Assembly: GCA_028819075.1 (NCBI GenBank)
Contig: JAPPMM010000023.1
Span: 1 to 64,000 of the forward strand
DNA length: 64,000 nt
Source of the DNA: Gammaproteobacteria bacterium
GTDB lineage: Bacteria; Gemmatimonadota; Gemmatimonadetes; Longimicrobiales; Gaopeijiaceae
Direction of reading: 5' to 3'
A model generated the notes under the pieces. It saw only the letters and a list, made by a program, of their open reading frames with translations. It was not told the DNA's origin and did not search any database. Positions 24,718-34,345 of this stretch are shown in pieces. Both the position numbers and the translations under genes were made by a program. Positions within the stretch are counted from its first letter, which is position 1; every line of letters begins with the position of its first letter.

Positions 24718-24746
24718 TTGACACGGCCGAAACGGACCCCTATCAT
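24718..24746 (+). promoter_or_regulatory. Consensus sigma70 promoter of candidate ncRNA
   Basis: TTGACA at 24718-24723 and TATCAT at 24741-24746 are separated by exactly 17 bases. This is the best promoter match in the window. No convincing gene follows on this strand, which points to an RNA product starting near 24753. Confidence 0.7.
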
Positions 24747-24752
24747 GGTAGT

Positions 24753-25075
24753 CCGATTCGAGCGCAGCAGGCTCACAGTCGATGGCGATGGTCATCCCTG
24801 GAGAGCAGCTCGGAGAGGGAAGCTCGCTGAGGCGGGACGCCGAGGCAGCGGGCGCGAGCCGGGACTTGAGCCCCGGTGAGCCGGCGGAGGGGTCGCTGTC
24901 CTCCGCTAGTAGCCCCGAAAGCGAAGGGGCACCTGAGCCGCACGTTGCGCGGCGAGGGGAAAAGGGACCAGGGCCGGTCGGCCGCACGCGGCCGGGATTC
25001 AAGCGGCGGAGCTGGTGCCGGCAGCGAGAAGAGGGCCCCCGAGTTCGGTGTGCCGAACCGGGGGCCGCTTCGTTT
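24753..25075 (+). ncRNA. Candidate structured non-coding RNA of unknown family
   Basis: The stretch between the RelA/SpoT gene and the convergent RNase H gene has a consensus promoter at its left end and a hairpin terminator at its right end, and holds no convincing gene. It is rich in self-complementary segments. Examples are GCCCC with GGGGC around GAAAGCGAA, GCCGC with GCGGC around ACGTTGC, and CGGCCGC with GCGGCCG. The expected transcript is about 320 bases. Core motifs of RNase P RNA, tmRNA, SRP RNA and cobalamin riboswitches were looked for by eye and not found. A 6S-like RNA or a new family remain possible. Confidence 0.5.
25034..25075 (+). terminator. Rho-independent terminator
   Basis: A stem of 14 base pairs with one bulged A forms between 25034-25048 (starting GGCCCCCG) and 25053-25066 (ending GGGGGCC), with loop TGTG. 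It is followed by GCTTCGTTT, a modest U-rich tail. It would end the transcript from the 24718 promoter. On the other strand it could act on transcripts leaving the RNase H gene, but without a U-tract. Confidence 0.75.
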
Positions 25076-25151
25076 AACCCTTCCCGCGTTTGACGCACCT
25101 GCGAGCGTGACGCTCGGAAGGCTGCCGTCCCCGCCGTGCCCGGGCGAGCCT

Positions 25152-32053: not shown

Positions 32054-34345
32054 TCAGGGCGCCGAACTCGAGCACACGCCTTCGCCTTCGTGGCGGTCGA
32101 TGCCTGCCAGCCATTCCTGGAAACGGGCATTGGCGGGAGAACACAGGTCGGTGGACACCCAGTTGAACACCTGGAGCGGCAGATGCACGAACTGCTGCGG
32201 GAGCGGTCCCGTCAGTTGCTCGTTGCTGCGGAGGTAGAGCCTCTGAAGCCTATGGAGCCCCCCCAGCTCGTGAGGCACGGGCCCGGACAACTGGTTGTAA
32301 TGAAGCCCGAGAAACGTGAGCGACGCCAACGCACCAAGTTCGTCGGGGATCTCACCCGTCAGCTGATTGCAGCAGAGGCTCAATAGCCGGAGGTGCGTGA
32401 GCCTGCCTAGGGTGGTGGGAATGGGACCCAAAAGTAGATTCCCATGCAGCCTGAGCTCGTTGAGGCGGGAGAGGTTGCCGAGGTTCGCCGGAATCGTGCC
32501 GGTCAGTCGATTGCCGGAGAGCCCCAGGTCCTCGAGGTTGGCCAGTCGGCCGAGTTCGGGAGGGATCGAGCCGGAGAATCTGTTGCCGTGGAGTCGCAGA
32601 CTTCGGAGCCTCGCGAGGTTGGACAATTCGCTCGGAATCGGACCTGAAAAGTGGTTCGACACCAGGTTCAGTTCTTCAAGGTCCGCGAATTCGGCCAGGT
32701 AGGGCGGCAGCGTCCCATTCAGGCCGTTGGCCGACAGGTTGAGGGTATGAAGCCCGGTGAGGTGCCGGAGTTCATCAGGGAGGGGTCCCACCAGTCCGTT
32801 GACCTGGAGATTCAACGAGGTAACCCGTCCCTCCACGTCGGTGACCACACCACGCCAGGTGCCGATCGGCTGATCCGTCAGCCAGTTTTCGCTGTTCGTC
32901 CAGGTCGCCCCGCCGGTCGCGTTGTAGAGAGCGACGAGCGCCGCCCGGTCCCGGTTCTGGACTACGATGCGGGCGCTCGCGGTCAGGCTCGAGGCGGGCA
33001 ACTGCGCCGAGATCCCGGCTGATCCCGGGCGTACCCCGGTCACCAGGCCGGCTGCGTCCACCGTCGCGACCGATTCGTCGTCGGACAGCCAGGTGACGTC
33101 GGCATCCGTGACCGCATTCCCGTTTGCATCCCGTACGTCCGCGGTCAACCGCAGCGTTTCCCGTGGGCTGAGCACTGCGGAGTCGGGAGAGACGGTCAGC
33201 GATGCCACCTCTTGCTCCACGGTGAAATTCACGGTCGCCGACACCGGGTCGGACGACGCCGAAACCGTAGCGCTGCCGTTTCCGACTGCGGTCACCAGCC
33301 CCGACGAACTGACGGTGACGACCGACTCGTCGTCGGAAGCCCAGGTGACGGTCGCGTCCGCGACCGGATGGCCGTTCGCGTCGACAACTTCCGCGGACAT
33401 CTGCAACGTTCCCCCGAGGGCCCGCAAGACCTGTGGATCCGGCGTCAACCGCACCTCGGCGGCTTCTTGCCCCACGGACAGCTCCGCGACACCCGACGTC
33501 CCATCGGTGGAAGCCGTTACCTGGGCGCTGCCGTTACCTGTGGCCGTGACCAGCCCGTCGCGGCTGACCGTAACAACCGCTTCATCACTCGATTCCCAGG
33601 CGACTCTGGCACCCGCCACCGAATGACCGTTCGCATCGATGACCTCTGCGGACATCCGCAGCGTGTCGCCGATCGCCCGGAGAACGGTGGAATCCGGGGT
33701 CAACCGCACTTCGGCGGTCTCCTGCTCGACGGCGAAGTCCGCTACGGCCGACGCCTGATCGGCCGTAGCCGTTACCTGAGCGCTGCCGTTGCCCGTGGCC
33801 GTGACCAGCCCGTCGCGGCTGACCGTAACTACCGCTTCATCGCTCGACTCCCAGGCGACTCCGGCATTCGCCACCGAATGACCGTTCGCATCGATGACCT
33901 CTGCCGACATCTGCCGCGTGGTGCCGATCGCCCGGAGAACCAGAGAATCCGGGGTCAACCGCACCTCGGCGACCTGCTGTTCAACGGCTATCGCCGCACT
34001 CCCGGAAGCCCCGCCGCCCCGGACGGTGGCGGTCACGTTGGTAGCTCCGTTTCCGACCGCCGTAACGACTCCGGAAGCGTCCACAGTGACGATTCCTGCG
34101 TCGCTGCTTGCCCAGTTGACGGCGACGCCGGTCATGGGAGCGCCGGTCTGGTCGCGGACGGTCGCAGTCAAGTGGACGGTCTGCCCGAGGGAAGCCAGCA
34201 CGGCGGAAGGAGGTGTGATTGCCAGCGTCGTGGGTACCGGCGGAGGTGCCTCGACCACCGTTCCCATGTCTCCGCAGGCGAGAATCAGAGCCGGAAGGAG
34301 GAGAAGCACATGCCGGAGGGGAGCGACACTGCCAATGGACGTCAT
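32054..34345 (-). CDS. Lipoprotein with tandem bacterial Ig-like domains and LRRs
   Basis: A 763-residue protein from ATG 34345 with a lipoprotein signal (LLLLPALILACGD; lipid on the Cys). About five Ig-like (BIG2-type) modules of roughly 85 residues span residues of about 35-460. They share the pattern VRLTPDS..L...G....MSAEV.DANG and SSDEAVVTVS.DGLVTATGNGSA. The rest is a leucine-rich repeat block of the plant-type spacing (LxxLxxLxLxxNxLxGxIPxxLGxL) to about residue 735, capped by two cysteines. Surface display and ligand or cell binding are inferred from both domain types. The gene converges with dcd. Confidence 0.88.
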   Translation of the reverse strand: MTSIGSVAPLRHVLLLLPALILACGDMGTVVEAPPPVPTTLAITPPSAVLASLGQTVHLTATVRDQTGAPMTGVAVNWASSDAGIVTVDASGVVTAVGNGATNVTATVRGGGASGSAAIAVEQQVAEVRLTPDSLVLRAIGTTRQMSAEVIDANGHSVANAGVAWESSDEAVVTVSRDGLVTATGNGSAQVTATADQASAVADFAVEQETAEVRLTPDSTVLRAIGDTLRMSAEVIDANGHSVAGARVAWESSDEAVVTVSRDGLVTATGNGSAQVTASTDGTSGVAELSVGQEAAEVRLTPDPQVLRALGGTLQMSAEVVDANGHPVADATVTWASDDESVVTVSSSGLVTAVGNGSATVSASSDPVSATVNFTVEQEVASLTVSPDSAVLSPRETLRLTADVRDANGNAVTDADVTWLSDDESVATVDAAGLVTGVRPGSAGISAQLPASSLTASARIVVQNRDRAALVALYNATGGATWTNSENWLTDQPIGTWRGVVTDVEGRVTSLNLQVNGLVGPLPDELRHLTGLHTLNLSANGLNGTLPPYLAEFADLEELNLVSNHFSGPIPSELSNLARLRSLRLHGNRFSGSIPPELGRLANLEDLGLSGNRLTGTIPANLGNLSRLNELRLHGNLLLGPIPTTLGRLTHLRLLSLCCNQLTGEIPDELGALASLTFLGLHYNQLSGPVPHELGGLHRLQRLYLRSNEQLTGPLPQQFVHLPLQVFNWVSTDLCSPANARFQEWLAGIDRHEGEGVCSSSAP
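33255..33975. repeat. 255-bp direct repeats encoding Ig-like modules
   Basis: Two stretches of very similar DNA lie 255 bases apart (starting about 33513 and 33768), and a third more diverged copy starts about 33258. Each encodes one 85-residue Ig-like module. The similarity at DNA level suggests recent duplication or gene conversion within the gene. Confidence 0.75.

Follow-up and report, generated by a model that had tools for sequence, protein, structure and literature searches.

A candidate new family of free-standing structured RNA in Gemmatimonadota

The window (the whole 64,000-nt stretch of DNA analysed here) carries, between two convergent genes, a conserved, structured and non-coding locus of about 320 nt, whose homologues stand in varied gene contexts in other Gemmatimonadota and match no Rfam family. 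It very probably encodes an unrecognised cellular RNA. Our favoured reading, which we hold to be rather likely, is a free-standing non-coding RNA of a new Gemmatimonadota family that acts in trans through its shape, by way of a protein or protein complex. Few large structured RNAs are kept throughout a phylum, and those that are tend to serve basic functions, like RNase P RNA, tmRNA, SRP RNA and 6S RNA. The novelty is the RNA family itself, which is absent from Rfam 15 and undescribed in the open-access literature searched; as a general class, free-standing structured RNAs are already known. With a covariance model of the family, a large group of bacteria from soil, sea and sponges could be annotated better.

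Transcript limits and coding capacity

The locus had been predicted, by inspection of the DNA, to be a candidate new structured RNA that opens with a TTGACA-17-TATCAT promoter and closes with a stem-loop. The negative Rfam scan and the conservation with compensatory changes described below support this original prediction, to which the present analysis adds the phylum-wide spread, the multiple copies outside the home family and a long-range pseudoknot. The coordinates of all features are summarized in Table 1.

The opening promoter is present: the -35 hexamer TTGACA (24718-24723), a 17-nt spacer and the -10 hexamer TATCAT (24741-24746) agree with the consensus at 11 of 12 positions, and shuffled sequences held 0.0 ± 0.1 matches of equal quality. 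The TTGAC element lies at an equal distance from the core in nine family members and is also evident in the alignment. Among more distant copies, a sigma-70-like site with at least 9 of 12 matches was found upstream of 12 out of 60. In the window copy, transcription would start near 24753. In copies from one other family (f7; L107-L112, L131, L140, L154), a GGGAA..TTCCC-like element lies directly 5' of a -35-like ATTG; it is possibly an operator or part of another promoter type.

The closing stem-loop, long and rich in G+C, is real as well (25031-25070; GGCCCCCG..GUUCGG[UGUG]CCGAAC..CGGGGGCC, approximately -31 kcal/mol). As the U tract that follows it is poor (CUUCGUUU), a strict terminator scan requiring 5 T in 8 did not call it, yet almost all homologues are followed by a strong hairpin at a similar place, in many cases with a more convincing U tract. 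Both promoter and terminator are retained within the home family.

Folding agrees with the strong interior hairpins that had been noted: the plus strand is 3.5 standard deviations more stable than dinucleotide shuffles (z = -3.5; 0 of 100 as good), and the minus strand 2.0. The claim that the interior holds no credible gene stands with one addition. An open reading frame of 103 amino acids (24782-25093, plus strand), the longest on the same strand inside the RNA region, does exist, but it is frameshifted by indels and interrupted by internal stops in three of seven close relatives, all congeners (L006, L007, L009). A small protein gene was therefore ruled out.

Table 1. Positions of predicted elements of the RNA locus in the window
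Feature	Position	Strand	Basis or detail
Sigma-70-type promoter, TTGACA-17-TATCAT	24718-24746	+	Consensus scan; TTGAC element kept in family
RNA gene, ~320 nt, from the inferred start to the end of the terminator tract	24753-25075	+	Full-length homology in family; fold z -3.5
P1, UUCGAGC (24757-24763) with GCUCGGA (24808-24814), encloses P2	24757-24814	+	Covarying equivalents
P2 hairpin, GAUGGC[GAUG]GUCAUC	24781-24796	+	Compensatory changes: L013 GAUGAU/AUCAUC, L021 GGUGGC/GUCACC
P3, 24822-24829 with 24846-24853; cap CGG[GACG]CCG at 24833-24842	24822-24853	+	Double changes
P4 hairpin, GCCGGG/CCCGGU, loop of U-U-(C/G)-G type	24858-24877	+	8 of 8 modelled pairs double-changed
P5 hairpin, loop with near-invariant GUCGCUG(G)	24883-24907	+	7 of 7 pairs double-changed
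Pseudoknot strand 1, CGCUGU in P5 loop	24894-24899	+	Pairs with 25021-25026
P6 hairpin, GCCCC/GGGGC	24912-24930	+	5 of 5 pairs double-changed
P7 hairpin, GCCGC/GCGGC	24937-24953	+	5 of 5 pairs double-changed
Conserved purine-rich linker, GAGGGGAAAAGGGA	24954-24967	+	Alignment conservation
P9, GGGACCAG (24964-24971) with CUGGUGCC (25012-25019), one mismatch, encloses P8	24964-25019	+	By eye
P8 hairpin inside P9	24979-24994	+	Read by eye
Pseudoknot strand 2, GCAGCG (CCAGCG as family consensus), shortly before terminator	25021-25026	+	Covariation
Terminator stem-loop and weak U tract	25034-25075	+	Stem 25034-25048 with 25053-25066

Secondary structure, covariation and pseudoknot

When RNAalifold was given a sequence-only alignment, misaligned loops kept the consensus poor (covariation term 5.4). 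The helices were subsequently built by hand and then tested. Specifically, P2, P3 with its GACG-capped end, and P4-P7 were derived from 19 diverse family sequences with every pair listed, and P1, P8 and P9 were assigned by eye. The window copy has all features that define the family, namely the GACG-capped P3, P4-P7, the pairing of the P5 loop with the 3' segment, and the terminator.

Compensatory base changes, which the original prediction had proposed to look for in related genomes, are abundant, and the RNA is conserved. Equivalents of P1 covary (UUUCAG/CUGAAA in L044, CCUGAU/AUCAGG in L010, UUUUUGAU/AUCAAAAA in L016), and most pairs of P3 are doubly changed, for example a cap pair that goes from G-C to C-G between families. 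Covarying equivalents of P9 (GGGA/UCCC, GGAAG/CUUCC and GGAGCU/AGCUUC) were read by eye in the family, with no formal score. Among 61 distinct sequences, all 25 modelled core pairs (P4-P7) have changed on both sides; 87% of the modelled cells are paired against 69% in shuffled controls, and the covariation score of 0.563 compares with 0.230 after shuffling and 0.06-0.12 after the 3' partners have been shifted by one to three columns. As the alignment of these sequences was fitted to the model, the pair counts lean towards the structure; unfitted alignments give the same compensatory pattern.

The P5 loop carries the near-invariant (G)GUCGCUGG, and its consensus CGCUGG can form six pairs with the CCAGCG segment that precedes the terminator. 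This pairing holds in 346 of 354 cells in 59 sequences. Double-changed cells number 13, against 1.1 in shuffles, and 0 of 5000 shuffles reached as many, a figure that is no strict probability as the segments were chosen by position and by eye and the sequences are related. Three of the six pairs covary, pairs 1 and 3 each varying in separate genera. The variants are CGUUGG/CCAACG (L016, L081, L097, L100), CACUGG with CCAGUG or UCAGUG (both copies in L101) and UGCUGG/CCAGCA (L112, L115). On this comparative evidence, the pseudoknot appears to be conserved. In the family members L038, L040, L044, L047, L051, L053, L055, L060 and L068 the RNA is longer, at ~400 nt, and has a further 3' hairpin domain that lies behind the CCAGCG segment and ahead of the terminator.

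Distribution and gene context

Contigs of Candidatus Palauibacter rhopaloidicola and of a metagenome-assembled genome labelled Gammaproteobacteria are 99.7-100% identical to the window over the region, which assigns the window to a Palauibacter genome (Gemmatimonadota). Two metagenome-assembled genomes labelled Gammaproteobacteria (RHO2_bin_50 and SB0662_bin_11; L035, JAPPJO010000105.1, and L033, VXNP01000134.1) carry the RNA at 98-100% identity and hence seem to be Palauibacter genomes under a wrong label.

When 98 related genomes were searched at the nucleotide level, the RNA was found at 89-98% identity in nearly all genus-mates and, over shorter stretches, at 67-88% identity in approximately 15 further genera. 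The single genus-mate in which no homologue was detected was G008 (99% complete), where neither the DNA search nor the covariance model gave a match. Family members align end to end, from the -35 element through the terminator. Within the home family the RNA occupies one orthologous site in the order bkdE2-lipB-[RNA]-rnhA-carA, bkdE2 and lipB being lipoate/2-oxoacid dehydrogenase genes, and the window copy lies downstream of a plus-strand gene with a RelA/SpoT domain and is convergent with rnhA on the minus strand. In Palauibacter, the RelA/SpoT-domain protein (PF04607; 23478-24599, plus strand) separates lipB from the RNA; it was not found at this site in the other genera of the family.

A covariance model (R1) built from the helices derived on the 19 family sequences matched 78 of 394 Gemmatimonadota genomes and thereby reached beyond the home family to others in its order and class. 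A second model (R2), restricted to the P4-P7 core of 35 sequences, matched 24 of 34 more fully searched genomes. With 11 candidates scored per genome, R2 furthermore matched at least 93 of 300 high-completeness Gemmatimonadota genomes, in 47 of 118 genera, the count being a lower bound. It gave no match in 18 genomes from other phyla. Many matches of a pattern scan of GTDB contigs outside Gemmatimonadota were rejected as chance, since they align over the pattern alone and R2 finds nothing in their genomes. A weak R1 match within the window (33156-33335, minus strand, 20.8 bits) was also rejected; it reads as repetitive protein-coding sequence. L161 (G413:C14, 54030 nt) comes from a genome that is placed in another family. 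Its score equals that of the window copy, and its contig is as long as the Palauibacter contig JAPPGH010000048.1; it is probably a mis-binned contaminant.

In other families of the class, the RNA is found at unrelated intergenic sites, in varied orientation and in one to four copies per genome. The flanking genes encode a response regulator, an amidohydrolase, Hsp20, an acyltransferase, HMG-CoA reductase, a short-chain dehydrogenase or a CBS-domain protein, so that no neighbour is shared. The additional copies in some genomes suggest paralogues. In L101 (2219-3825), two diverged copies share a strand at a distance of about 1.5 kb, which points to a local duplication. In plasmid and viral collections, neither the window copy nor the core pattern had a match. 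A cellular role seems likelier than a mobile element, given that the RNA is spread over one phylum and mostly present once per genome.

Comparison with known RNAs and possible function

No known family motif had been recognised by eye, and the covariance-model scan agrees. Against the 4227 families of Rfam 15, nothing in the window reached the gathering threshold, the best match of the region being no better than E = 2. At 13 homologous loci no family reached its gathering score either, and permissive scans returned matches at chance level. Membership in Rfam was accordingly rejected for the window copy and its homologues, permissive thresholds included. RNase P RNA and tmRNA are similar in length and compactness but are found at full score elsewhere in the genome (RF00010 at C24:62903-63273 with 279.6 bits; RF00023 at C2:62216-62571), and ARAGORN detected no tmRNA in the window. 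The open-access literature searched, as distinct from subscription papers and preprints, describes no structured RNA from Gemmatimonadota, and two large surveys of intergenic RNAs do not mention Gemmatimonas.

The most likely model would be a trans-acting structural RNA with a putative protein partner. The gene's own promoter would give rise to a discrete transcript, which would act in trans. Its core would be the hairpin series P3-P7, closed by the pseudoknot between the P5 loop and the pre-terminator segment, and by analogy with 6S, Ms1 and OLE RNA the folded shape may bind a protein or protein complex. Control of a neighbouring gene or pairing with mRNA would not be its main task.

A base-pairing regulatory RNA is unlikely, though it has points in its favour. 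Here, the hairpins would be scaffold and stabiliser, and the exposed segments (the GGGACG cap, the P4 loop and the purine-rich AGGGGAAAAGGGA linker) would base-pair to the start regions of mRNAs, perhaps aided by a chaperone. The predicted free-standing transcript with a terminator would fit, as would the presence of several copies in some genomes, known from some sRNA families, and the conserved unpaired stretches (the purine-rich linker and the loops of P3 and P4) might just as well be there for base-pairing. However, such length and heavy structure are unusual for a bacterial sRNA, and the most conserved loop is engaged in the pseudoknot.

The RNA resembles 6S RNA in being free-standing and structured, with its own predicted promoter and a housekeeping-like distribution. 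It also resembles the mycobacterial Ms1 RNA, a free-standing structured RNA confined to one phylum (PMC4191392). Ms1, to which no sequence relation is known, demonstrates that unrelated structured RNAs can bind RNA polymerase (PMC4191392), a feature of Ms1 that a Gemmatimonadota counterpart of 6S and Ms1 would share. The predicted promoter and terminator and the phylum-wide occurrence are in line with such a counterpart. The 6S covariance model (RF00013) has no match in the window or its homologues. The same model detected no 6S RNA in 11 RNA-bearing genomes, an absence that says little because it misses 9 of 14 control genomes. 6S RNA, however, has about 190 nt and one long bubble hairpin, whereas folding and covariation here give separate hairpins P1-P8 and a pseudoknotted core in 320-400 nt, with neither a central-bubble hairpin nor a 5'/3' closing stem. 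A 6S architecture was rejected on these grounds, and the up to four dispersed copies per genome likewise argue against a polymerase-binding counterpart, which we regard as doubtful at best.

Like OLE, ROOL, GOLLD (PMC12286853) and the raiA motif RNA, the present RNA is an orphan, highly structured and free-standing, and came out of comparative genomics. In contrast to these, it has no Rfam match and occurs in other taxa. A protein-free assembly of the OLE/ROOL/GOLLD kind, or an unknown ribozyme, would suit the compact pseudoknotted fold and the near-invariant loops. As the present RNA matches those families neither in sequence nor in structure (none of the Rfam models for OLE, ROOL, GOLLD, HEARO and raiA reached the gathering score in the window or at the 13 homologous loci), we consider this reading improbable.

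It is highly improbable that the element acts in cis, whether by forming the 3' UTR of the upstream gene, by attenuating that gene, or as a bidirectional terminator region whose spacer is structured. It does follow lipB on the same strand in the home family (the RelA/SpoT gene in Palauibacter), but the upstream promoter is retained in the family, and neighbours and orientation differ in other families. A riboswitch or other cis-regulatory leader, against which the original prediction had already argued, is excluded at this locus because the next gene, rnhA, is convergent, an arrangement that is the same throughout the family; other copies stand beside unrelated genes.

Beyond the preferred trans-acting structural RNA, a broader and more tentative proposal, plausible without being probable, is that of a phylum-wide RNA machine with no relation to any described RNA, either a new ribonucleoprotein scaffold or a catalytic RNA, whose paralogues may have specialised in some lineages. 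As the RNA is present in the cultured Gemmatirosa kalamazoonensis, its expression, structure, binding partner and deletion phenotype are testable. This organism (L156-L158) carries three copies, one on the chromosome and two, 24 kb apart, on a plasmid of 1.04 Mb (the record NZ_CP007130.1 is identical).
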